Assembly: GCA_016931115.1 (NCBI GenBank)
Contig: JAFGFM010000075.1
Span: 1-47,932 of the forward strand
DNA: 47,932 nucleotides
From: Deltaproteobacteria bacterium
GTDB lineage: Bacteria > Desulfobacterota > DSM-4660 > Desulfatiglandales > HGW-15
Reading direction: 5' to 3'
Shown one piece after another: positions 1,538-17,553 of this stretch; the stretch's first letter is position 1; each line of letters begins with the position of its first letter. The notes under the pieces were generated by a model that saw only the letters and a program-made list of their open reading frames with translations, was not told where the DNA came from and made no database searches. A program made the translations under genes and the position numbers.

Positions 1538-1963
1538 TTAGAACTTCGCCCTTGGTATGGATGCCTCTTTCATGCTGTCGGCCATTGACCAGAAGTACGC
1601 CTCACCGGTATAGAGATGAAACACCGCAAGAAGCGGGTTATCTGGCTCTGTGATGCCCATGGTCTTTAAGAATGGTCTTTCGGCTATGCATTTTTTCTTT
1701 ATCTCCATATCCTCAACGATCTTCACCTTGCCTGACACCCTCATCACCTTGCTGAAATTTGGCATGGTGAAATAGACCTCAACCTTTGGGTTTTTCTGGA
1801 TCTGCTTGTAGAGCGCCTTTACAGTCTGGGCCTGAAACCAGAAACCGGTTTCGTCTGCATACCACATGCCCACTGCCCTCACCCTGGGCTGATCACCCTC
1901 AACAGTTGCAAGATAACACATAGGATTTTCATTTGCGAATTTGGTATATTCCTCAATGCTCAT
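1538..1963 (-). CDS. Pyridoxamine 5'-phosphate oxidase-like FMN split-barrel protein
   Basis: The product is 141 aa from the ATG at 1963, which has GGGGG five bases upstream. An ATG at 1975 adds four residues but has no ribosome binding site. The sequence follows the small PNPOx-like fold: an N-terminal helix, then CYLATVEGDQPRVRAVG, then GFWFQAQTVKALYKQI with the Lys/Gln region that usually contacts flavin phosphate, and KVEVYFTM with VSGKVKIVED. Such proteins bind FMN or F420 and often act as cytoplasmic flavin reductases or detoxification enzymes; the substrate cannot be read from sequence. It stands alone, divergent from the TRAP genes. Confidence 0.8.
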   Translation of the reverse strand: MSIEEYTKFANENPMCYLATVEGDQPRVRAVGMWYADETGFWFQAQTVKALYKQIQKNPKVEVYFTMPNFSKVMRVSGKVKIVEDMEIKKKCIAERPFLKTMGITEPDNPLLAVFHLYTGEAYFWSMADSMKEASIPRAKF

Positions 1964-2112
1964 TTTAGCCCCCATAATTAAAGGTTGGATTTGATACCCC
2001 GGCGTTTGTTTAATAATAACCGGTCATTGTTAGAGCCCTTAATTTATGATCTAAACTGATTGCTTGTCAAGGCTTTCATGCTCTCTGCTCTATCTGTATC
2101 CCTAGAAAAGAG

Positions 2113-2141: not shown

Positions 2142-2142
2142 A

Positions 2143-2156
2143 ACCGAACACTCGGT
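2143..2156. promoter_or_regulatory. Candidate operator, perfect inverted repeat ACCGA-N4-TCGGT
   Basis: The 14-base palindrome ACCGAACACTCGGT begins one base after the predicted -10 box, where a repressor would block transcription start. The form suits a dimeric regulator such as a TetR-family protein, but no such regulator is encoded nearby. Assignment is inference. Confidence 0.35.
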
Positions 2157-2229
2157 AAAGTACCCAAGAGGACAATAATATTAATCCTGTGTGATAATGT
2201 TTTAAACATTCTTTTCCTGGGAGTAAGTT

Positions 2230-3282
2230 ATGATCAGTAAAAACCTCCTGTCCCGCTTCTTGTTATTTATATTCATGATGATTCTTATTGATTCAGCCTT
2301 TTTCCCTGCCCCTGCGAAGGCCGGTAAGACAAAGGTAATTAGGCTCGTGGTGCCAGCAGCAGCCGGTGACCCCCTTACAGTCAAAGACGAGGAGCTGGCA
2401 AAAAGATTTAATGCGCGCGTAAATGGCCAATACAAAATACAGGTCTTTCCGGGTGAATCGCTTGCGCGTATCCCGGAATTTTTTGATGCGGTTCGCGTAG
2501 GGGCCATAGAGATGGCCGATGTGGCTTGGGGAATATATGCAGGCGCTGACCCGAGGCTGTCACTTATTGAAACGCCATTCCTGTTCAATAATATTGAGGC
2601 AGGTACTGCTGCGGCCAAAAGGCTTTTGCCCCTGCACGACAAGATACTTCAGGAGAGATTCAATGCAAAGGCACTCGGCCTGATCCACTTCAGCGGCATT
2701 GAACTTATAACCCGCAAGCCTGTAACAAATTTAAAGGAGTGGAAGGGTATGATGGTTGGAGCCATAAGCCCTGCCATGGCAAGGATGATTCAGGATCTGG
2801 GCGGGTCGCCTGTAACAGTTATGTGGACAGACCTTTATACCAGCCTTCAGAAAGGTGTCATAGACGGCACAGCAAATGGTACTCACGGCAGCATAGAAAA
2901 CGGGCTCCTTGATGTGACCTCTGATATCACATATTTTTTTGGCGCTGCTGCATGGAATGGTTATACCATAAACCTTGATTTATGGAAGGGGATGCCTCCG
3001 GATGTCCAGCAGATACTCATTGAAGAGTCAGGGATGGCGTGTGAATGGATGGAGCAGAAGCTTGTCGAGTATGAAAAAGAGGATCTAGAGGCATTTATCA
3101 AGGCTAAAAAAAGGGTGCATATCATTTCAGAAGAAGAGCGGGAACTATGGCGCAAAAGGCTTTTGCCATATCAGAAACAACAGATTGAGAGCATGGGGGA
3201 ATTCGGGCAAAAGGTAAAAGAGATAGCGGATGATGTTAACAGTAAATACCCGTACCGCACAAAAACACTAAGCGGTGAGTAG
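2230..3282 (+). CDS. dctP: TRAP transporter periplasmic solute-binding protein (DctP family)
   Basis: This is the 350-aa substrate-binding subunit of a tripartite ATP-independent periplasmic transporter. A signal peptide covers about residues 1-31. Family hallmarks are the FFDAVRVGAIEMADV region (84-98), PFLFNN (116-121), and LGGSPVTVMWTDLYTSLQKG with VIDG (190-213). At the position where most DctP-type proteins carry the Arg that clamps the ligand carboxylate (canonical KGLKIRV), this one reads KGMMVGA, with Gly177, so the ligand may not be a simple carboxylate or may be held differently. The start has GGGAG upstream. The C-terminus overlaps the dctQ start by eight bases, so the genes are translationally coupled. 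The ligand is unknown; downstream enzymes suggest a catabolic substrate. Confidence 0.9.
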   Translation: MISKNLLSRFLLFIFMMILIDSAFFPAPAKAGKTKVIRLVVPAAAGDPLTVKDEELAKRFNARVNGQYKIQVFPGESLARIPEFFDAVRVGAIEMADVAWGIYAGADPRLSLIETPFLFNNIEAGTAAAKRLLPLHDKILQERFNAKALGLIHFSGIELITRKPVTNLKEWKGMMVGAISPAMARMIQDLGGSPVTVMWTDLYTSLQKGVIDGTANGTHGSIENGLLDVTSDITYFFGAAAWNGYTINLDLWKGMPPDVQQILIEESGMACEWMEQKLVEYEKEDLEAFIKAKKRVHIISEEERELWRKRLLPYQKQQIESMGEFGQKVKEIADDVNSKYPYRTKTLSGE

Positions 3283-3799
3283 AGGGGATATGTCAGGGGT
3301 CACACTGCAAAAGATAGACCGTGTACTTGAAAGGGTAAGTAATCTCTTTGCCGTTTTGAGCGGGATAATGATCCTTCTTATGGCCTTTACCGCAACATAT
3401 GGAGTTTTAAGAAGGTATCTTTTTAAAAGCCCTGAACCCTACTCATATGAATTAAGCACCATGTTTCTTTTATGGACATTTGTGCTTGCTGTTGCCCACC
3501 TTGAGAAGCTGGATGGGCACCTGAGGGTGGATTTTTTTGTTGTTCTCCTTCCTGAAAGGCTAAGGATGTTCCTGTTAAATATCATAGGCCCCCTGGCAGG
3601 GCTTCTGTTCTGCTCTGTTCTGACATGGGAAGGTTTCAAGGTTGCCCTCTATTCCCTTGAGATAGGTGAAAGGAGCATGTCTATATGGGCTGTTCCCCTT
3701 TTCCCAATAAAGATTATCATCCCTTTAGGGTACGGGCTGCTCTGTATAGTGCTGGTTTTGAAGATCATAAGAGGGTTTATAAACCTAAGAGTTGATTAA
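3275..3799 (+). CDS. dctQ: TRAP transporter small permease (DctQ)
   Basis: The 174-aa four-helix membrane subunit joins the solute-binding protein to the large permease. Hydrophobic segments lie at about 24-44, 61-79, 96-119 and 139-162, and the ATYGVLRRYLF and LEKLDGHLRVDFF stretches are typical of the family. The GTG at 3275 overlaps the end of dctP. An ATG at 3290 is also possible, but the purine-rich GAGGGG sits only two bases before it. It belongs to the dctPQM operon. Confidence 0.88.
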   Translation: MSRGDMSGVTLQKIDRVLERVSNLFAVLSGIMILLMAFTATYGVLRRYLFKSPEPYSYELSTMFLLWTFVLAVAHLEKLDGHLRVDFFVVLLPERLRMFLLNIIGPLAGLLFCSVLTWEGFKVALYSLEIGERSMSIWAVPLFPIKIIIPLGYGLLCIVLVLKIIRGFINLRVD

Positions 3800-3826
3800 G
3801 ACCTATTAGTTCGGGTTGGAGATAGA

Positions 3827-5128
3827 TTGGATTACAATACCGCATCCATTATTTGTGCATGTCTGATGCTCTTTTTGCTCCTGATCGGGGTACCCATCGC
3901 ATATGCGCTCGGATTCAGCTCAATAGTAGTAGGGTACTTTGCATTTGGCAGCTTTGCCCTACAGAAGGCGGGCTGGACAACCTTTCAACTCCTTTATAAC
4001 CTAACATGGACACCCCTCCCGCTTTTTACACTCATGTCCTTTCTGATCGCTGAGACCAGGATGGGGGAGGATCTGTTCCGGGCAGCAAGAAACTGGCTCT
4101 CACGGCTTCCGGGCGGCCTCTTTGTCGCAGGTATTTTTGGCGAAGCAGGCATGGCAGCGGCCCTTGGTGCGAGCGGGCCAACAATTATTGCAGTAGGAAA
4201 TGTGGCTGTGCCGGAATTTAAAAGATACTCATATAACAAGGCTGTAGGCCTTGGTGCACTCACCTGCGGGGGTGTGCTCGGGCCTCTTATACCTCCAAGC
4301 GCCACTATGATCATATTTGCCATCCTGGCCAATGTGCCCCTGGGGCATCTGTTTATCGCGGGTGTAATACCAGGGATACTCCTTGCGATAATGCTTTCGA
4401 TTGTCCCTGTGATCATGTGTATCAGAAACCCTGAACTTGGAAGGGCAGCAGGGCGGGTCAGCTGGCAGGAGAGGTTTGCTTCCCTCAAGCTTATCTGGCC
4501 TATTGTGCTTGTCATGTTTGGTATTCTTGGTTCAATCTATTTTGGCATTGCCACCCCGACAGAGGCAGGGGGAGTAGGCTGTTTTATCGTACTGGTTGTT
4601 GCAGTCATCTTTTATAATCTGAGGCTGAAAGGGCTATACAGGGCGATAATGCAGACCGCAGTACTCAATGCGACCATACTGATCATACTCGTGGGCTCCT
4701 CCTTTTTTACCTATGTGTTTGGAAGCTCATCAGTTGCGCAGAAATTGTCTGAAGTTATTGCCTCCCTGAATCTTCCTCCAATTGCAGTGATTGTTGCCAT
4801 AATGGCATTTCTGCTGTTGCTGGGGTGCATAATAGACGGCATAACCATCATGATGCTGACTGTTCCAATATTTATACCTGTTATAACAGGGCTTGGGTTT
4901 GACCCTGTCTGGTTTGGGGTGTTGTTTGTAATCAATATGGAAATAGCCCTTATCACACCTCCGATGGGCATCAACTTTTTTCTGGTAAAAAAGAATTTTG
5001 AGATCTCCAGTATTGAGCTTATAAAGGGGGTATTTCCATTTTTAATAATGCTGTTACTGTTTCTGGTCGTGACAGTGGCTTTTCCACAGTTGAGCCTTTG
5101 GCTTCCGGGGCTGATGACCGGGAATTAG
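3827..5128 (+). CDS. dctM: TRAP transporter large permease (DctM)
   Basis: This 433-aa integral membrane protein is the transport-catalysing subunit, normally coupled to sodium or proton gradients. It has a dozen hydrophobic segments and family signatures such as GASGPTIIAVG, LGPLIPPSATMIIFA and ITPPMGINFFLVK near the C-terminus. The start is a TTG at 3827, preceded by GGAGATAGA. No nearby ATG gives the expected N-terminus, DYNTASIICA, leading into the first helix. It lies 27 bases after dctQ and ends the transporter part of the operon; the cupin genes follow after 153 bases. Confidence 0.9.
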   Translation: MDYNTASIICACLMLFLLLIGVPIAYALGFSSIVVGYFAFGSFALQKAGWTTFQLLYNLTWTPLPLFTLMSFLIAETRMGEDLFRAARNWLSRLPGGLFVAGIFGEAGMAAALGASGPTIIAVGNVAVPEFKRYSYNKAVGLGALTCGGVLGPLIPPSATMIIFAILANVPLGHLFIAGVIPGILLAIMLSIVPVIMCIRNPELGRAAGRVSWQERFASLKLIWPIVLVMFGILGSIYFGIATPTEAGGVGCFIVLVVAVIFYNLRLKGLYRAIMQTAVLNATILIILVGSSFFTYVFGSSSVAQKLSEVIASLNLPPIAVIVAIMAFLLLLGCIIDGITIMMLTVPIFIPVITGLGFDPVWFGVLFVINMEIALITPPMGINFFLVKKNFEISSIELIKGVFPFLIMLLLFLVVTVAFPQLSLWLPGLMTGN

Positions 5129-5194
5129 GGGGTATTTTAATGGCTCAGGGCTCAAGGCACAAGGTACATGGTGAGATATAAGATATTTCTGTAG

Positions 5195-5216
5195 GGGCAG
5201 GCCTATGTGCCTGCCC
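5195..5216. repeat. Palindromic intergenic repeat, GGGCAGGC stem
   Basis: GGGCAGGC (5195-5202), a six-base loop and GCCTGCCC (5209-5216) form a perfect eight-base-pair hairpin. A related inverted sequence in the opposite orientation lies at 37323-37350 (GTAGGGG...CCGCCC type). It is probably a dispersed REP-like element. With no clear T-run after it, termination activity for dctM is only possible. Confidence 0.55.
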
Positions 5217-5281
5217 TTATGAGTTGGCGAACGGAAGTATTCCAGATAGAAAATCAGATTTGACTGACAGGAGACAAATAC

Positions 5282-5728
5282 ATGGATAATACGAAATACA
5301 GCAAATATATTGTCCAGGGGATAACCCCTGAAATGAAGAGGATGTCATACCCTGGAAAGCCCCAGGATATCCCCCCTGAAAATGCAAAGAGGATCGCCTG
5401 GATGGATGACCATATTGTCCCTGGCGCCTTTTATACTGAGGCTGTCTGGATATGGAAGGGGGACGAGGGCTCTGTTGAAAGGCCCCATACCCATGAGTTT
5501 GATGAGGTGATCACCTTTTTCGGGAGTGACTTTAATAACCCGGATGAACTCAATGGCGAGATAGAATTCTGGTTTGATGATGAACAGCACATATTTACAA
5601 AAAGCGTCATGCTGTTTATCCCAAAAGGGCTCAAACACTGCCCGCTGATCATCAGGAGGGTGGATAGACCCATATTCCATTACACGGCAGGGACAGGGAA
5701 GAGCCATACGCAGGAGATAAAGGGGTAA
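5282..5728 (+). CDS. Single-module cupin-like protein with HxH metal motif
   Basis: The 148-aa cytoplasmic protein carries one cupin-type module. Candidate metal ligands are His69 and His71 (RPHTHEFDE), Glu75 and His119 (PKGLKHCPL), spaced like cupin motifs 1 and 2. The same framework, a (G)xDxxNP(D/E)xL(N/G)(G/A)EIEF block and a P-x-G-x-x-H block, appears in the next two genes, so this is the simplest member of a local family of five modules. The start has AGGAGA nine bases upstream. Exact chemistry is unknown: metal-dependent cupins include dioxygenases, decarboxylases, isomerases and sugar or ligand sensors. Location between a TRAP transporter and an AOR suggests a role in processing the imported compound. 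Confidence 0.72.
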   Translation: MDNTKYSKYIVQGITPEMKRMSYPGKPQDIPPENAKRIAWMDDHIVPGAFYTEAVWIWKGDEGSVERPHTHEFDEVITFFGSDFNNPDELNGEIEFWFDDEQHIFTKSVMLFIPKGLKHCPLIIRRVDRPIFHYTAGTGKSHTQEIKG

Positions 5729-5732
5729 GAGG

Positions 5733-5889
5733 GAAGAAGTCAGGAGTCAGAAGACAGAAGACAGAAGACAGTAGTCAGAATACAGAAGACAGAATACAGA
5801 AGACAGAATTCAGAAATCAGCGATCAGAGGACAGAAGTCAGAGGTCAGAAGTCAGAATACAGAAGTCAGGAGTCAGGAGACAGGAGGAA
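5733..5889 (+). repeat. Degenerate heptanucleotide tandem repeat (AGTCAGA/AGAAGAC type)
   Basis: About 155 bases between two cupin genes consist of near-tandem seven-base units such as AGTCAGA, AGAAGAC and AGAATAC. No coding potential is evident. It ends just before the GGAGG of the next gene. It is one of several seven-base-period tracts in the window, each with a different unit. Confidence 0.8.
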
Positions 5890-5895
5890 GTCAAA

Positions 5896-6795
5896 ATGCG
5901 AATAGAGGATGTGTCAGGATACCTGATAGAGAAACCTTTAAGAAACAGGCTCAAGGGTAAAAACCAGGGGGAAATACTCACCTATGCCAGTGATGCCCTT
6001 ATACCCGGTTTAAACTATTATGCACAGCTCAGGTGGATAAAGGGTATGCCTGAGCCTGATGTGTCTGACAAAGGTCTGGTGAGTGACTGTAATAAGATAG
6101 TGCTTTTCTGGGGCAGTGATTATAAAGAGCCTGAAAGCCTGGGGGCAGAGATAGAATTCATGCTTGATGGAACACCTTTAAGGTTCAGCCGTTCAAGCTC
6201 TATATTTATACCGGCTGGAGTAAGCCACGGACCTGCCACATGGAAGAGCTTTACATCACCCCATATGGAGATGACCATCCTTATCAACAAAGGAAACCGT
6301 GATGGTGAAATAGAAGCGGATAAGGCAGGAAGTTTGAGACATTTATCTGATCCTGAGAAATATCTGGTAAGAAAACCGGCATATGAGGTTGTGGCCCCAA
6401 CACCAACAAAAAACAGGATGCACCCATCCATGACCTTTATGAGCAACAACCTGGTCCCTGGCGCAAACACATACCTTGAGTTCAGCTGGATATGGGGCAT
6501 ACCTGACCCTGACCCGCATATATTTGAACATGTCCATGATGATTCAAATGAGCTGGTATTTCATATAGGAGGAGACCCTGATAACCCTGAAAGCTTAGGT
6601 GCAGAGATAGAGATATTTCTTGATAAAAGGCCCCTTTTACTGAAAAAGACATGTGCCCTTTATGCCCCTAAAAAAATAAGCCATGGTCCGCTCAAATGGA
6701 AGGGTTATACAAGGCCCCATATAGAGATGGCCATTATTTTTGATGCGGGCGTGCTTGCGCAGTCTGACCCTGGCGGGCATCAGAAAAATATGTAA
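5896..6795 (+). CDS. Two-module cupin-like protein, first module degenerate
   Basis: The 299-aa product has two copies of the cupin-like module seen in the preceding gene (about residues 8-132 and 155-283). Module 2 keeps the presumed metal site: His212, His214, Glu219 and His263. Module 1 has the same framework (GSDYKEPESLGAEIEF; AGVSHGPATW with His111) but the HxH segment reads SDCNKIV, so the metal site is probably lost. The layout resembles bicupins with one catalytic and one structural domain. The start has GGAGGAAG upstream. It lies 25 bases before the next two-module paralogue. Substrate unknown; cytoplasmic by lack of a signal peptide. Confidence 0.72.
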   Translation: MRIEDVSGYLIEKPLRNRLKGKNQGEILTYASDALIPGLNYYAQLRWIKGMPEPDVSDKGLVSDCNKIVLFWGSDYKEPESLGAEIEFMLDGTPLRFSRSSSIFIPAGVSHGPATWKSFTSPHMEMTILINKGNRDGEIEADKAGSLRHLSDPEKYLVRKPAYEVVAPTPTKNRMHPSMTFMSNNLVPGANTYLEFSWIWGIPDPDPHIFEHVHDDSNELVFHIGGDPDNPESLGAEIEIFLDKRPLLLKKTCALYAPKKISHGPLKWKGYTRPHIEMAIIFDAGVLAQSDPGGHQKNM

Positions 6796-6820
6796 TTGAC
6801 ATGCTTATGAGGTAATTGAA

Positions 6821-7741
6821 ATGACCCTGAACAACTATAAAAGATATATGGTCACAAATCCCCTGAGAGAGGCAGGTAAAGGTGTCAAATGGAGAAGCGC
6901 CCCTGTAATGACATATATGAGTAATGACCTTGTGGCAGGGTGCAACAAGTATATTGATATAAGCTGGATAAAGGGCATGCCTGACCCTAACCCCCATGTT
7001 GTGGAATTTGCCTGTAATTATGACAGGGTGATTTTTTACGTGGGGAGTGACCCATTTAATCTTGAAGAGCTGGGCGCAGAGATATGCTATTACCTTGGCG
7101 GACAGGAGATAAGGCTCAATACAACCTCTGCAATCTATATCAAAAAAGGTGTTAAGCACGGACCCGCCATATGGAATTCCTTTACACGGCCACACCTTGA
7201 GATATCCATAATCATGGGACCTGAAAAAAATGACAGGGCATGGATAGGCCCTGGCCAGAAAAAGAACTCTCAGGAAATAACTCCTCAAAAAAACGATGAT
7301 GCGGATTATGAAAGATATGTAGTGAAAAAGCCCTTCATCCTTCAGGGCACTGAAGTTACAGATGCGATGGAGAGCCCGGCCCAGATTTATATGAGCAGCG
7401 CCCTTATCCCTGAAAGTAAACTCTATGTGGACTTTGGCTGGATACCGGGCATGCCGGGGCTGAATCCACCAATACCTGACCACTCACACGATTATGAAGA
7501 GGTGGTATTATTAGTGGGGAATGACCCGAATAACCCTGAGGTTTTGGGTGCTGAGTTGGAGTTCTGTATAAATGATGAGCCCCTTACTTTTGATACAACA
7601 ACAGCCATTTATGCCCCAAAGTCGCTAAAACACGGGCCGCTTACATGGAAGAGGTTTGAAAGGCCGCATCTGCTTATGCCAATAGTGTTTGGTACAGGGT
7701 CGATCGCTGAGGCGGCACCGGCGGGGTATAGGGAAGAATAA
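6821..7741 (+). CDS. Two-module cupin-like protein, paralogue of the preceding gene
   Basis: The 306-aa product has two modules (about 5-133 and 163-292). Module 2 has the intact motif DHSHDYEE (His221, His223, Glu227) and His271 in KSLKHGPLTW. In module 1 the equivalent reads EFACNYDRV, without the HxH pair, while His113 remains. The order, degenerate first then intact, is the same as in the preceding gene, so the two genes probably arose by duplication of an already two-module ancestor. Conserved module borders include a SWIKGMP or GWIPGMP turn and RPHLE/RPHLL near the end. GAGG lies nine bases before the ATG. Function is unassigned. Confidence 0.72.
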   Translation: MTLNNYKRYMVTNPLREAGKGVKWRSAPVMTYMSNDLVAGCNKYIDISWIKGMPDPNPHVVEFACNYDRVIFYVGSDPFNLEELGAEICYYLGGQEIRLNTTSAIYIKKGVKHGPAIWNSFTRPHLEISIIMGPEKNDRAWIGPGQKKNSQEITPQKNDDADYERYVVKKPFILQGTEVTDAMESPAQIYMSSALIPESKLYVDFGWIPGMPGLNPPIPDHSHDYEEVVLLVGNDPNNPEVLGAELEFCINDEPLTFDTTTAIYAPKSLKHGPLTWKRFERPHLLMPIVFGTGSIAEAAPAGYREE

Positions 7742-7823
7742 GAGGGGCTCAAGGCTCAGGGTGCAGGGCGCAGGGCTCAGGGTGCAAGGTAAAGGCGCAG
7801 GGCGAAAGGCTCAAGGTAGGTAT
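7742..7823 (+). repeat. Degenerate heptanucleotide-type repeat (GGCTCAG/GGTGCAG/GGCGCAG)
   Basis: The gap between the last cupin gene and the EthD-like gene is filled with imperfect seven-base units of the GGCTCAGGGTGCAG type. A similar tract is at about 41981-42020. A coding frame through it, extending the next gene upstream, has low-complexity composition and is not credible. Confidence 0.7.
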
Positions 7824-7859
7824 GAGGTTTGCGGTAAAAAAACACAAAGGAGAAAAATT

Positions 7860-8171
7860 ATGATCAGGGCTACAGTATTTTATCCATCTGGTGAGGGCAG
7901 GTTTGATATGGAATATTATCTTAATTCACATATCCCCCTTGCGGAAAGGCTTTTGAAACCCTATGGGCTTATACGTGCGGAGGTAGATAAAGGCATTGCA
8001 GGTGGAGGGCCTGGTGAGGCTGCCCCATTTGCCACTATTGCCTACATGATATTTGAAAATATGGAGGGGCTGACAAAGGGAATGGCTGCCCACGATGCTG
8101 AAATGGCAGCGGACGTAAAGAATTTTACTGATCTGAAGCCATTTTTCCAGATAAGCGAAATATTAAGATAA
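7860..8171 (+). CDS. EthD-like dimeric alpha/beta-barrel protein
   Basis: The product is 103 aa from the ATG at 7860, which has AAGGAG nine bases upstream. Features of the EthD/ferredoxin-like fold are the opening strand IRATVFYPSGEGRFDMEYYLNSHIPLAERLL, in which the Tyr/His pair (YYLNSHIPLA) is the usual active-site or contact signature, and a later strand FATIAYMIFENMEGL followed by an MAADVKNFTD helix. EthD-type proteins are small cytoplasmic dimers found in catabolic clusters; some are polyketide cyclase-like or decarboxylase-like, many have no known reaction. The placement between cupins and the Lrp/AOR pair supports a role in the same pathway. Confidence 0.75.
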   Translation: MIRATVFYPSGEGRFDMEYYLNSHIPLAERLLKPYGLIRAEVDKGIAGGGPGEAAPFATIAYMIFENMEGLTKGMAAHDAEMAADVKNFTDLKPFFQISEILR

Positions 8172-8235
8172 AAATCTTAATCCTTGCTAAATTGTTTTTC
8201 TTTGTATTATTATTTCAATGGTATTCGAATCGGGA

Positions 8236-8256
8236 TGAATCAAATAAACAGATTCA
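8236..8256. promoter_or_regulatory. Candidate autoregulatory site of the Lrp/AsnC gene
   Basis: The inverted repeat TGAATC-N9-GATTCA lies 27 bases before the start of the Lrp/AsnC-family gene, preceded by a further GAATC. Lrp-family proteins commonly bind such AT-rich repeats near their own gene. Assignment is inference from position. Confidence 0.35.
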
Positions 8257-8282
8257 AATCAGCATGAAATGGAGGTGGGGGT

Positions 8283-8729
8283 ATGTTACTGGATGAGATA
8301 GACCTGGCATTGATCAAGGAATTGGAAAAGGATGCAAGGATTAGCAGTGACGCTTTGGCAAAGAGTCTTGATATCAGCTCCACAACAATAAGGAGAAGGA
8401 CAAGGAGGTTAATTCAGGAGGATGTAATAAAGATCGTTGCAATACCTGACCTGAAAAAACTCGGCTACTCCTTTATTGTAGGCATTCAGATGGAGCTGGA
8501 TCAGAAAAAGATCGAGAATGTTACCAAGGAGCTTATTAAGCATCCTAATGTGAGGAGTGTATGGACAGTTACAGGCCGATACAACCTCACATCTATGGCG
8601 GTTTTTAAATCCACAGAGGAGTTTTCAGAGTTTATGCGCTCGGTAGTAGGCGAACTCGACGGCCTGAAATCCGTTGAAACCAATATCTACCTGGAGCTTA
8701 TAGGTTCACAGTCACAGGTGAAATCCTAG
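8283..8729 (+). CDS. Lrp/AsnC-family transcriptional regulator
   Basis: The 148-aa protein has an N-terminal winged helix-turn-helix (about 4-60; LLDEIDLALIKELEKDARIS, then LAKSLDISSTTIRRRTRRL) and a C-terminal ligand-binding RAM domain (about 70-142; YSFIVGIQMELD, VRSVWTVTGRYNL, GLKSVETNIYLELI). Members sense amino acids or other small metabolites and activate or repress adjacent catabolic genes. The start follows GGAGGTGGGGGT. Its place between the cupin/EthD genes and the AOR suggests it controls this locus. Confidence 0.88.
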   Translation: MLLDEIDLALIKELEKDARISSDALAKSLDISSTTIRRRTRRLIQEDVIKIVAIPDLKKLGYSFIVGIQMELDQKKIENVTKELIKHPNVRSVWTVTGRYNLTSMAVFKSTEEFSEFMRSVVGELDGLKSVETNIYLELIGSQSQVKS

Positions 8730-8737
8730 GCCGCCTG

Positions 8738-8755
8738 GTGAGGGGAGGCCCTCAC
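8738..8755. repeat. GC-rich hairpin after the Lrp/AsnC gene
   Basis: GTGAGGG (8738-8744) pairs with CCCTCAC (8749-8755) around a four-base loop, nine bases after the regulator's stop codon. No T-run follows, so it may be a pause or processing site rather than a full terminator. It separates the regulator from the AOR gene. Confidence 0.4.
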
Positions 8756-8837
8756 TAAACGGTCATTTTGTTCTGCAAACGCTTCAAGACGCCCGACCCT
8801 TGAGATATTCATTTTTATCATCAAAATGGAGGATAAA

Positions 8838-10682
8838 ATGTACAGAGGGGGATATACCGGCAGGATACTCAGGATAAATCTTACAGATCAATCCATAAAA
8901 ACAGAACCCTTACCAGAAAATCTTGCAAGAAGCTATATAGGAGGCGCAGGTTTTGGCATTAAACTCCTGTTTGATGAGGTCAAAAAAGGTATTGATCCAC
9001 TCGGCCCTGAAAACAAGCTTATTTTTGCGCCAGGTCCCCTTACCGGTACATCTGTTCCATGCGCAAGCCGCATGGCCATTACCAGCAAATCACCCCTTAC
9101 CGGCGCAGTCGGCATGTCACTTACTGGCGGATATTTTCCTGTAGAGCTCAAGTTTGCAGGCTTCGATGTAATGATTATAGAAGGCAGGTCTGAAAAGCCG
9201 GTCTATATCTCCATTAAGGATGACAGCGTAAAGATCAGGAGCGCTGAAAAGGTCTGGGGCATGAAGACAACAGATACCCAGCAGATTATAAAAAACGAGT
9301 TGAATGATCAGAACACAAGGATAGCCTGCATAGGGCCAGCCGGTGAAAACCTGAGCAGGCTTGCATGCATTATTAATGAGCTGCGCGCAGCCGGTAGAAA
9401 GGGGCTGGGCGCAGTAATGGGCTCAAAAAATCTCAAGGCAATAGCTGTAAGGGGCTCTGGCTCTGTAAATATTGCATCAAATGAAAAGCTCAAAACAGCG
9501 CGTGACTTTATGGCAAAGGAGATGAAGAATAGCCCAGTTCTATACCCGCAGTTTGCAAAACTCGGGACACCTATGGTGGTGGATGCCTTAAGCGAACTTG
9601 GCATATTCCCCGGAAAAAATTATGGGGAGACAGGTGTTTTTGTCCCGGTTGAAGAGATAGGGGTAAAGACACAGCTTACAAGAAACATGGGTAAAGAGCA
9701 CTGTTATGGATGCCCTGTGGGGTGCAGCCAGTTAAAGCTCGCAAAGACAGGAGAATATGCCGGTATTATGTCAGAGGGGCCTGAGTTTGAGACCATGTAC
9801 TCCTTTGGCGGGACAACCGGTGTGGATAATATAGATGCCATTATTGCCGCTGACAGGATATCGGATGAGCTGGGCATAGATACCATCTCAGCCGGTGTAA
9901 CCATAGCCTTTGCAATGGAGCTCTATGAAAAGGGGATAATAGATAAGAAAGATACAGGCGGGATAGAGCTTAAATTCGGAAACTACAGGGTAATGGTGGA
10001 TATGTTAAGATTAATGGCCTACAGGGAGGGGTTTGGGGATGTGCTCTCTGACGGCTCAAAAAAGGCGGCAGAGCGCATAGGCAAGGATTCATATAAATAT
10101 GCCATGCATGTTAAGGGGCTTGAACTTCCCGGTTATGATGTAAGGGGGGCAAAGGCACACGGGCTTAACTATGCCACCTCCTACACAGGCGCAGACCATA
10201 ACAGGGGCTATGCATTTCAGGAGATATTCGGCATACCGATCCCTGAACCTGTAGACCGGTTTTCCATTAAGGGGAAAGGGGCGCTCACAAAATGGAATCA
10301 GGATGTGCGCTCTGCCACCTGTGATGCCCCTACCATGTGCGCATTCCTTTTGGATATGGCCGTGCCAGCGGTAGCAACCCAAAATACCTCAAACCTGCTT
10401 GAGGCTGTTACAGGGTTAACCTTTACACCAGATGAGATAGAAAAGGTTGGAGAGAGGATGAACAACCTTGCAAGGCTCTTTAATGCAAGGGAGGGTTTTG
10501 GCCGCAAGGATGATAACCTCCCTGATAGAATACTTACAGAACCCATAAAGAATGGTAATTCAAAGGGTAGTTTTATCAGCCGTAAAGAGCTTGATACAAT
10601 GCTGGACGAGTATTATTCAGCAAGGGGATGGGATAGGGAAGGCACCCCCACAAAGGCGAAGCTGGAAGAGCTGGGGTTATGA
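8838..10682 (+). CDS. aor: Aldehyde:ferredoxin oxidoreductase family (tungsten/molybdenum bis-pterin enzyme)
   Basis: The product is 614 aa from the ATG at 8838, which has GGAGG seven bases upstream; the ATG at 8826 would place this ribosome binding site inside the gene. It shows the N-terminal AOR fold (YRGGYTGRILRINL, YIGGAGFG, FAPGPLTGTSVPCASR) and the four-Cys [4Fe-4S] site CYGCPVGC (289, 292, 296) with Cys501 in CDAPTMC. The family reversibly oxidises aldehydes to acids, or reduces acids, with ferredoxin; some relatives act on aromatic acyl-CoA. It is cytoplasmic. FdhD at 46.7 kb is a sulfurtransferase for related cofactors. The co-located cupins and transporter suggest a dedicated substrate rather than a housekeeping role. 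Confidence 0.92.
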   Translation: MYRGGYTGRILRINLTDQSIKTEPLPENLARSYIGGAGFGIKLLFDEVKKGIDPLGPENKLIFAPGPLTGTSVPCASRMAITSKSPLTGAVGMSLTGGYFPVELKFAGFDVMIIEGRSEKPVYISIKDDSVKIRSAEKVWGMKTTDTQQIIKNELNDQNTRIACIGPAGENLSRLACIINELRAAGRKGLGAVMGSKNLKAIAVRGSGSVNIASNEKLKTARDFMAKEMKNSPVLYPQFAKLGTPMVVDALSELGIFPGKNYGETGVFVPVEEIGVKTQLTRNMGKEHCYGCPVGCSQLKLAKTGEYAGIMSEGPEFETMYSFGGTTGVDNIDAIIAADRISDELGIDTISAGVTIAFAMELYEKGIIDKKDTGGIELKFGNYRVMVDMLRLMAYREGFGDVLSDGSKKAAERIGKDSYKYAMHVKGLELPGYDVRGAKAHGLNYATSYTGADHNRGYAFQEIFGIPIPEPVDRFSIKGKGALTKWNQDVRSATCDAPTMCAFLLDMAVPAVATQNTSNLLEAVTGLTFTPDEIEKVGERMNNLARLFNAREGFGRKDDNLPDRILTEPIKNGNSKGSFISRKELDTMLDEYYSARGWDREGTPTKAKLEELGL

Positions 10683-10832: not shown

Positions 10833-11489
10833 TTATATCCCCATCTCCTGATTTATCAACACCACCTTTATCCTCCCTTTTGGGAAGGACTTTTCCGTGA
10901 TCGTCCATGAGTTGCATATCCTTGCAGGGCTTTTACAGTCTGCGCATCTACCTGATTTTACGCACGGGGTCTTCATATCAAGCCTCATGGCGTTTATTGG
11001 TGCTGCATAGTTTTTTATCCTGTACATGGCATCCTCCAGGTCTGCCACTATCTTGTTTTTCCCGGCAAGGATTATTACATTCTTTGGACCATAGGTTATT
11101 GCCCCAACCCTGTTACCGATCATGTCAAGGTTCACAAGGTGCCCTGCCTCGGTAATTGCATTGGTGCCTGTAATAAAAAGGTCAGTGAGAAGGGCCTGCC
11201 TGCGTCTTTCAGCCACCTCCTCCTGGGTAAATCTTTTTCTGTCATAGGTATCAAGGATCTCATACTCCTTACTGTTTTTAAGGGCATCATAAATGCCTGA
11301 TGCCAAAAATGTCATGGAGCCGCCCCATGATATGCTTTTTGGTTTTATCTCAGGAATGATCTCCTGCTCCACCATCTCCTTTGCATTTGCCGCATCTTTA
11401 GCAATAAAGGCATCAAAGTTATTTTTGATTAATGCGCTCTTTACCTCTTCAAGCCTGGTTGCCCAGTAAAATTCTGTCGGTTTTTCCAT
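10833..11489 (-). CDS. LUD-domain protein (LutC/YkgG-like, DUF162)
   Basis: The product is 218 aa from the ATG at 11489, which has GGAGG upstream; an upstream ATG at 11543 adds 18 residues and is less likely. The LUD fold is indicated by ALIKNNFDAFIAKDAANAKEMV near the start, SISWGGSMTFLASGIYDAL, LFITGTNAITEAGHLVNLDMIGNR with AITYGPKNVIILAGKNKIV, and a C-terminal Cys cluster (CVKSGRCADCKSPARIC). LUD proteins occur with lactate-utilisation LutABC and with Fe-S oxidoreductases; stand-alone forms have unknown reactions. It converges on the AOR gene from the other strand. Confidence 0.85.
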   Translation of the reverse strand: MEKPTEFYWATRLEEVKSALIKNNFDAFIAKDAANAKEMVEQEIIPEIKPKSISWGGSMTFLASGIYDALKNSKEYEILDTYDRKRFTQEEVAERRRQALLTDLFITGTNAITEAGHLVNLDMIGNRVGAITYGPKNVIILAGKNKIVADLEDAMYRIKNYAAPINAMRLDMKTPCVKSGRCADCKSPARICNSWTITEKSFPKGRIKVVLINQEMGI

Positions 11490-11733
11490 AGGTTGCCTCC
11501 TTGTTATATAAGCTAATATCCTTTTAAACAGGATTATGGACATTTATATAATATTTTTTATACAATGTTGAACAAATTTCAGTGAATGGTTGTCTATTCA
11601 TCTATACTTTTTGGCCTTTTTAACGACTTATGGGATATTATACCCGGTATCTGTTATATTACACTGTCTTACAATGTGGAGGAGACAGGGAAATTCAATA
11701 AAGGAAAAACCACCAATTAAAGGAGATGGTATC

Positions 11734-16638: not shown

Positions 16639-17553
16639 ATGAAACGTCTTGTTACTGGTGTTTTTTTCATGCTTATTGTTGCGGCCATTGTTATGGCTGG
16701 TAGCGCTACCGCGCAGGATTCAAAGGTAGAGGTAAAGGCATGCTGCACTCGCGCAATGCTGCAGAAGGCAGTTGACAGCTATCTGGCTGCCCAGACATCT
16801 GGCGACATCACAAAAATGGAAATGGCCTCTTATGTAAAATATATGGAAAACATGGAGCCCATTGCAAAGGAAAAGGGGCTGTGGAATACAGCACTTCCCA
16901 TTGCATTCAGCCGCAGCTACCTTGACCCTGATATCTGCAAGACCTTTACAGAGATAATCGTTACTGAAGGCGGCCACCCATATGTAATTGGCACCAGGCT
17001 TACAGTAGAATTTGGAAAGATCTCAGAGATCGATTCACTTGTTACAGACAAGGATGACTGGCTTTTTAATGCGGAGAAATATCTAAAATACTCCCAGATA
17101 GAAGACTGGGGAGTATTACCCCCGGAAAAACGCAGCAGCAGGAGTCACCTCATTCAGGCTGGCAACTCATATCTTGATATCTTCCTTGATAAAAAGGTTG
17201 TTGTGCCCTGGGGCAAACCATGCGCAAGGCTTGAGGGCGGGGCATACACACTTGAACCATTTCCGGGGATGCCCGCACCAAAAGAGGAGCCGGGCTGCGA
17301 TATCGGCATACCGGATAATGTACCTATTGTAGGCCGCAGCTATCTGGTAGATGAAGAGCTTGGTGTAGTTAACATCTTCTGCCGCTTTGGGGATGCTGTT
17401 AAGGGCATGCCTGATTCACATATGTTCCGCCTTGTGGATGGAAAGCTCAGGTATGTCCACACCCTGAGCGTTTCGCCTCCCGGAGGCATGCAGATGCCCA
17501 TGCCTAAGAGCATACCGCTTAATAATGATAAGCCAAAGGTAGAGGGGAAATAA
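16639..17553 (+). CDS. Secreted protein, SnoaL/NTF2-like (possible DUF8021)
   Basis: The 304-aa product has a signal peptide (MKRLVTGVFFMLIVAAIV..., cleavage near ATA-QD, residue 25). The mature protein begins with a helix (AMLQKAVDSYLAAQTSGDITKM) typical of cone-shaped NTF2/SnoaL folds. A later block reads VDEELGVVNIFCRFGD followed by MPDSHMFRLVDGKLRYVHTLSV, which resembles DUF8021-type proteins, though I cannot verify the family. Cysteine pairs (CCTR at 35-36, and single Cys later) could form disulfides. AGAGGGGGG precedes the ATG. The gene is monocistronic, with a clear terminator following. Confidence 0.7.
   Translation: MKRLVTGVFFMLIVAAIVMAGSATAQDSKVEVKACCTRAMLQKAVDSYLAAQTSGDITKMEMASYVKYMENMEPIAKEKGLWNTALPIAFSRSYLDPDICKTFTEIIVTEGGHPYVIGTRLTVEFGKISEIDSLVTDKDDWLFNAEKYLKYSQIEDWGVLPPEKRSSRSHLIQAGNSYLDIFLDKKVVVPWGKPCARLEGGAYTLEPFPGMPAPKEEPGCDIGIPDNVPIVGRSYLVDEELGVVNIFCRFGDAVKGMPDSHMFRLVDGKLRYVHTLSVSPPGGMQMPMPKSIPLNNDKPKVEGK

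Follow-up and report, generated by a model that had tools for sequence, protein, structure and literature searches.

The 47,932-nucleotide contig JAFGFM010000075.1 of a Deltaproteobacteria bacterium (assembly GCA_016931115.1; this whole stretch is referred to as the window) carries a row of nine co-oriented genes, all on the + strand between positions 2230 and 10682, that we tentatively read as an operon by which an anaerobe breaks down a single organic compound. The compound would not be a carboxylate at uptake; it would enter through a tripartite ATP-independent periplasmic (TRAP) transporter, be converted to an aldehyde by cupin proteins of an unnamed family, and then be oxidized by an aldehyde:ferredoxin oxidoreductase (AOR). 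We give this reading a probability of about 0.4. What the sequence itself shows is the gene set with its synteny and the selection acting on it, the residues of the metal site, the absence of the arginine in the TRAP binding protein, and the type of the AOR. Interpretation comes in with the substrate, the order of the steps, the parts played by the EthD protein and by the degenerate halves of the bicupins, and the anaerobic life of the host. An earlier note on the same DNA had described eight co-oriented genes here; their presence, coordinates and orientation stand, and the count becomes nine:

2230..3282, + strand: TRAP solute-binding protein DctP, without the conserved carboxylate-binding arginine (Gly177) (PF03480, E 2e-39)
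3275..3799, + strand, alternative start 3290: TRAP small permease DctQ (PF04290, E 4e-24)
3827..5128, + strand: TRAP large permease DctM (PF06808, E 2e-77; TIGR00786, E 4e-89)
5282..5728, + strand: cupin1, single-domain protein of the unnamed cupin family (metal ligands H69, H71, E75 and H119; AlphaFold2 pLDDT 83)
5896..6795, + strand: bicupin 2 (N-terminal half without metal ligands; C-terminal half with H212, H214, E219 and H263)
6821..7741, + strand: bicupin 3 (N-terminal half without metal ligands; C-terminal half with H221, H223, E227 and H271)
7857..8171, + strand: EthD-type dimeric alpha-beta barrel protein (PF07110, E 8e-9; TIGR02118, E 6e-17)
8283..8729, + strand: Lrp/AsnC family regulator of 148 residues (PF01037, E 8e-14; PF13412, E 6e-13)
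8826..10682, + strand: AOR, tungsten-bispterin type by sequence (AFOR_N, E 3e-83; AFOR_C, E 8e-132)

The EthD gene most likely starts at 7857 rather than 7689, because the open reading frame from 7689 opens inside the upstream cupin gene and the protein of the congener starts at the equivalent ATG. Its product scores well above both family cut-offs (37 bits versus 22 for PF07110; 62.1 versus 30.5 for TIGR02118).

The row is conserved in a second species of the genus

In the genome of a second species of the genus (G001, locus L059) all nine genes recur in unchanged order, together with both flanking genes. The ratio of nonsynonymous to synonymous substitution rates (dN/dS) between the window and G001 is 0 to 0.14 for every gene of the row, which indicates purifying selection. 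Since the whole row and both flanks are repeated at these ratios, the row is not a chance arrangement, and the coherent locus described in the earlier note is borne out. The Lrp protein is identical at 148 of 148 residues (dN 0, dS 0.34). Four further features flank the genes or lie between them:

1538..1975, - strand: PNPOx-type flavin-binding protein, divergent from DctP (PF01243, E 4e-14)
2142..2158, no strand: palindrome AACCGAACACTCGGTAA, candidate operator upstream of DctP, identical in G001
8172..8282, + strand: conserved non-coding stretch upstream of Lrp, candidate regulatory region, nearly identical in G001
10833..11543, - strand: LUD-domain protein, convergent neighbor downstream of AOR (PF02589, E 6e-50; dN/dS 0.04 against G001)

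The PNPOx protein is 94% identical in G001 and occupies the same position there. The EthD-Lrp and Lrp-AOR gaps are near-identical in the two genomes whereas the other gaps of the row hold diverging short repeats, and this difference suggests regulatory DNA around the Lrp gene. The palindrome AACCGAACACTCGGTAA is found in exact form at one place in the window, where 0.04 occurrences are expected at up to three mismatches, and could serve as the operator of an unlinked regulator. No terminator-like sites were detected on the + strand in the gaps of the row, but its co-transcription is putative. Scanning the window for Rfam families and tRNAs gave no matches.

The repeats in the gaps 5129-5281, 5729-5895 and 7742-7856 are of the AGAAGACAG and CAGGGCTCAAGG types. 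A hairpin resembling repetitive extragenic palindromic elements, GGGGCAGGCCTATGTGCCTGCCC, also occurs in gaps of the row and recurs at other loci of both genomes.

The importer lacks the carboxylate-binding arginine

By Pfam, the row encodes a complete DctP-DctQ-DctM set and hence a DctP-type TRAP transporter. In alignments to solved DctPs, Gly177 of the window protein faces the arginine of the KGxKIR motif. Of all DctPs, 96.8% have an arginine at this position (Arg147 of SiaP), and it is the filter that selects for carboxylates (PMC4646407). The orthologues in G001 and in G006, another genome of the class, have glycine at the same position, so that all three orthologues lack the hallmark of a carboxylate-specific TRAP transporter. 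The absence of this arginine suggests that the imported compound is probably not a simple carboxylate. The import proposed in the earlier note is thus upheld as to the importer and refined as to the cargo: a non-acid probably enters and an acid would appear only at the AOR step.

The roughly 3% of DctPs without the arginine have been linked to ethanolamine or to presumed hydrophobic, non-carboxylate ligands, but few of them are characterized, and a SiaP arginine mutant still bound its acid at high concentration (PMC4646407). One could therefore argue that an ordinary carboxylate, perhaps an aromatic or sugar acid, is the substrate and binds without help of the usual arginine; the locus would then be one more version of an acid-degradation pathway already known. 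We consider this rather unlikely: the glycine is fixed in all three DctP orthologues, and uncharged import fits better because the AOR would itself generate an acid.

DctP orthologues (E<=1e-50) were found in 3 of 395 genomes of the phylum sample (G000, G001 and G006); no genome of the class other than these three is rich in the cupins. In G006 about 7 kb separate the closest bicupin relative (41-47%) from the TRAP orthologue (67-82% identity), and the same 16 kb hold an aldehyde dehydrogenase-like gene, a different, non-orthologous AOR and short-chain dehydrogenases/reductases (SDRs); a decayed PNPOx remnant stands beside the TRAP orthologue, in the position that the gene has in the window. 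A locus of Dehalococcoidales (L134) combines a TRAP transporter, an AOR, a ferredoxin-like protein, three cupin genes and an alcohol dehydrogenase. In genomes with single cupins, TRAP genes lie within about 8 kb of 5 of 11 cupins, versus 0.9 expected, in a count made by hand with a limit set after seeing the data and with two of the five matches from one genus. The pairing of TRAP transporter and bicupin is better supported than linkage to AOR or EthD, and we regard the TRAP linkage as moderate.

The cupins form an unnamed family with a conserved metal site

All three cupin proteins score below the gathering cut-off of the Pfam model Cupin_2 (PF07883; 17, 13.1 and 17.7 bits versus 27.2), and no NCBIfam model matches them. 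The five cupin modules counted in the earlier note were found, of the metal type that it had proposed, although only three of them keep the HxH...E...H metal site. Using the published motifs as the standard (motif 1, HxH(x)3-4E; motif 2, PxG(x)2H; together a 3-His-1-Glu site; PMC3765361), we recovered the site in cupin1 and in the C-terminal halves of both bicupins, with the glutamate at a spacing of 3, 4 and 3, respectively, although the glycine of PxG is missing in places in motif 2 of the C-terminal halves. The N-terminal halves of both bicupins have lost the HxH and the glutamate. In an alignment of 39 family members, H69, H71, E75 and H119 (cupin1 numbering) are invariant or nearly so, as is E95, and in a set of 158 family domains the corresponding profile ligands H68, H70, E74 and H118 are kept in most (132-150 of about 155).

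AlphaFold2 models of cupin1 and bicupin 3 (predicted local distance difference test, pLDDT, 83 and 81) both match cupin structures, with the expected beta-helix barrel. The cupin1 model is closest to MarH and to a non-heme iron epimerase/lyase (7eqk), the top fold matches having Z scores of 10.1-10.8; for bicupin 3 the top Foldseek matches are BacB and AerE (E 4e-12 and 2e-11). When the family profile was compared with solved structures, MarH/StnK3 and 7eqk again came first (E 8e-7 and 2e-6), while a search of the PDB with one bicupin sequence gave no match, so that these matches came from the profile alone. Taken together, the nearest folds and profile matches are MarH, the non-heme iron epimerase/lyase, KdgF, DddK, BacB and AerE; most of the closest solved structures belong to isomerases, epimerases or lyases that work without oxygen, and for this reason the models favor such chemistry for the cupins of the window. 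In the case of StnK3 and MarH, the beta carbon of a 2-keto acid is inverted (PMC4742848).

The cupin family is patchy and strongly expanded where present

Three of the 85 genomes in the class of the window's genome (G000, G001 and G006) have 37-45 domain matches to the family, while the other 82 have 0-6. The bicupin profile matched 17 of 395 genomes of the phylum sample. Relatives occur in metagenome-assembled genomes (MAGs) of Dehalococcoidales, other Chloroflexi, Acidobacteria and Actinomycetota, as well as in the deltaproteobacterial G006. Dehalococcoidales MAGs of only 1.0-1.8 Mb have up to 47 cupin matches, yet 191 of 197 sampled genomes in the class of one such MAG had none. As few genomes hold dozens of copies while most of those sampled hold few or none, the family is patchy and strongly expanded where present.

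Twin-arginine-type signal sequences open some of the family cupins (L049, L053, L057, L071 and L093), and such members may be at work beyond the cytoplasm. This bears on the possibility that the cupins are binding or sensing proteins, comparable to auxin-binding protein or to storage cupins, that buffer a hydrophobic compound or present it to the real enzymes. The high copy number, the lack of a fixed enzymatic partner, the apparent export of some members and the presence of auxin-binding protein among the fold matches would all agree with such a role. However, the full 3-His-1-Glu site is conserved in most domains and the nearest profile matches are epimerases and lyases, and we therefore hold a purely binding role to be unlikely.

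Several other genes recur near family cupins. Pairs of UGSC-like proteins do so in several phyla (L067, L091, L105, L108 and L145), and a PNPOx homologue (68% identical) lies about 5 kb from a family cupin in an Acidobacteria MAG (L106). A secreted-looking protein without a Pfam match is encoded at 16639-17553 of the window, and its paralogues recur beside cupins elsewhere in the genome (15 proteins, 11 loci). In two loci from different phyla, L081 (G006:C148) and L100 (an Actinomycetota MAG), a family cupin has as neighbors a glycyl radical enzyme with its activase, a B12-dependent mutase-like subunit, an AOR and a MutL-like protein; the glycyl radical enzymes are 62% and the AORs 68% identical, which marks a candidate second catabolic locus.

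Family-wide, the cupins are weakly linked to AOR, and outside the genus no link to EthD was found

The AOR of the row, as named in the earlier note, was confirmed. Its best solved relative is the Pyrococcus furiosus enzyme (1aor; E 1e-144 over the full length), and it has the AFOR_N and AFOR_C domains, CxxCxxxC with a distal cysteine for a 4Fe-4S cluster, and the active-site glutamate and histidine, with cluster cysteines and active-site positions aligned. By sequence it is predicted to be of the tungsten-bispterin type. Such genes are abundant: 17-28 AFOR-family genes were found in each of G000, G001, G006, G013 and G052, many of them in the BamB length class (650-730 amino acids).

The earlier note had proposed a neighborhood survey as a check on whether TRAP, cupin, EthD and AOR genes recur as a set, and cupin homologues standing mostly without AOR or TRAP genes were to count as a refutation. 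We made the count over 154 cupin clusters in 14 genomes, where the cupins of the named MAGs are those among the matches listed, weaker ones being left out. Several of the results weigh against the proposed operon. Of the 154 clusters, only 12 have an AOR gene within 3 kb, where 6.2 would be expected, and 19 have one within 10 kb, where 16.0 would be expected, so that the family-wide excess is weak. The clade of ten to which the window's AOR belongs has two cupin-linked members, which are congeneric, and eight from outside the genus that are not linked. The three TRAP genes have a dS of 1.07-1.62 against G001, compared with 0.34-0.76 for the other genes of the row, and the TRAP block may therefore have a partly separate history. 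The gaps of the row reach 167 bp and some are filled with repeats, which leaves a single transcript putative. On the side of the cupins, identities to the matching folds are only 12-19%, and likeness of fold does not establish a reaction; the Foldseek list also includes dioxygenases, and quercetinase and salicylate dioxygenase are among the fold matches. We set an oxygenase role aside on the grounds that the hosts look anaerobic, these matches notwithstanding.

No EthD genes were found near cupins outside the genus among the matches listed. With AOR linkage weak, EthD linkage absent in this sense and TRAP linkage moderate, the recurring set did not hold up outside the genus; since most cupin copies stand without a nearby AOR, TRAP-cupin-EthD-AOR is not a general module, and we rejected a cupin-AOR module as a rule of the family. 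A dedicated cupin-linked AOR subfamily was rejected as well. In a tree of 84 AOR rows, made by a quick method and with some long branches, cupin linkage needs 8 changes compared with a shuffled mean of 11.4; it is somewhat clustered yet arose many times, and most members of the clade that holds the window's AOR are not linked. SDR, coenzyme A-pathway or TRAP genes often lie next to the relatives in this clade.

Another possibility is that the AOR works in reverse or in detoxification, reducing acids or removing toxic aldehydes, while the cupins and the TRAP transporter serve something separate, such as osmolyte or metabolite handling, and the genes are merely co-localized. The abundance of AOR genes, the mostly unlinked AOR clade and the differing dS of the TRAP genes would fit this explanation. 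On the other hand, the row, its order and both flanks are kept in the congener, the EthD-Lrp and Lrp-AOR gaps are near-identical there, and the orthologous TRAP genes of G006 have an aldehyde dehydrogenase-like gene and a non-orthologous AOR beside them. We consider this explanation as a whole unlikely.

A proposed function for the row

In the catabolic operon that we propose, DctPQM would import one specific non-carboxylate compound. The metal-loaded cupin1 and bicupin C-terminal halves would then carry out an oxygen-independent isomerization, epimerization or lyase step next to a carbonyl, the N-terminal bicupin halves may be structural or substrate-shaping lobes, and the EthD protein would assist one of the steps. 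The aldehyde product would be oxidized to an acid by the AOR, with electrons passing to ferredoxin, and the Lrp protein might sense a pathway metabolite and control its own gene and that of the AOR. The expansion of the cupin family to dozens of copies in a few anaerobes would presumably reflect one set per substrate.

It could be speculated further that the cupins are a new family of oxygen-independent enzymes, expanded to dozens of copies per genome in anaerobes of several phyla to open diverse non-acid natural or fossil organics, and that they play in anaerobes the general part that large families of oxygenases play in aerobes, with the window copy equipped with its own importer and aldehyde oxidase. 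We regard this broader idea as quite improbable.

TRAP-fed catabolic loci are common, and the operon by itself is therefore a modest finding. The cupin family is the more interesting lead, as no curated model fits it and a few unrelated anaerobes hold up to dozens of its genes; if the cupins are catabolic, they would point to a so far unrecognized chemistry by which carbon is turned over anaerobically in the subsurface. Taken together, the AOR and the arginine missing from the TRAP protein lead to a concrete, testable prediction: the compound taken up would not be a carboxylate, but the product would be one.

Comparison with known systems

The earlier note knew of no named pathway with this gene set; the open-access library searched likewise had nothing relevant on the gene set or the cupin family, although absence there is weak evidence of novelty. 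MarH and StnK3, from maremycin and streptonigrin biosynthesis, and 7eqk resemble cupin1 most closely, being both its best, though weak, profile matches and its top fold matches. MarH and StnK3 are single-domain metal cupins that need no oxygen to act beside a 2-keto group (PMC4742848), and cupin1 shares their domain type. In contrast to the window, the known proteins (16-19% identical to cupin1) occur in actinobacterial antibiotic clusters, in one copy each and without TRAP or AOR genes. The bicupin isomerases BacB and AerE, the top Foldseek matches of bicupin 3, have two cupin barrels per chain like the bicupins of the window but share only 12-14% identity with them; the window proteins keep the metal site in the C-terminal half only, and their context is apparently catabolic where that of BacB and AerE is biosynthetic.

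The EthD protein belongs above the cut-off of the EthD family reductases (TIGR02118), although the row has no oxygenase or cytochrome P450 partner. With DctP-type TRAP transporters the row shares the full DctP-DctQ-DctM set but differs at the equivalent of SiaP Arg147, where it has glycine. The AOR is homologous over its full length to the enzymes of P. furiosus and Aromatoleum (8c0z; E 1e-144 and 2e-120, respectively), with active-site positions aligned; as a difference, the row encodes no flavin or polyferredoxin subunit dedicated to it. Every part of the row comes from a known superfamily, and what seems to be new, within the models and open-access literature searched, is the combination of genes and a cupin family without a curated model.

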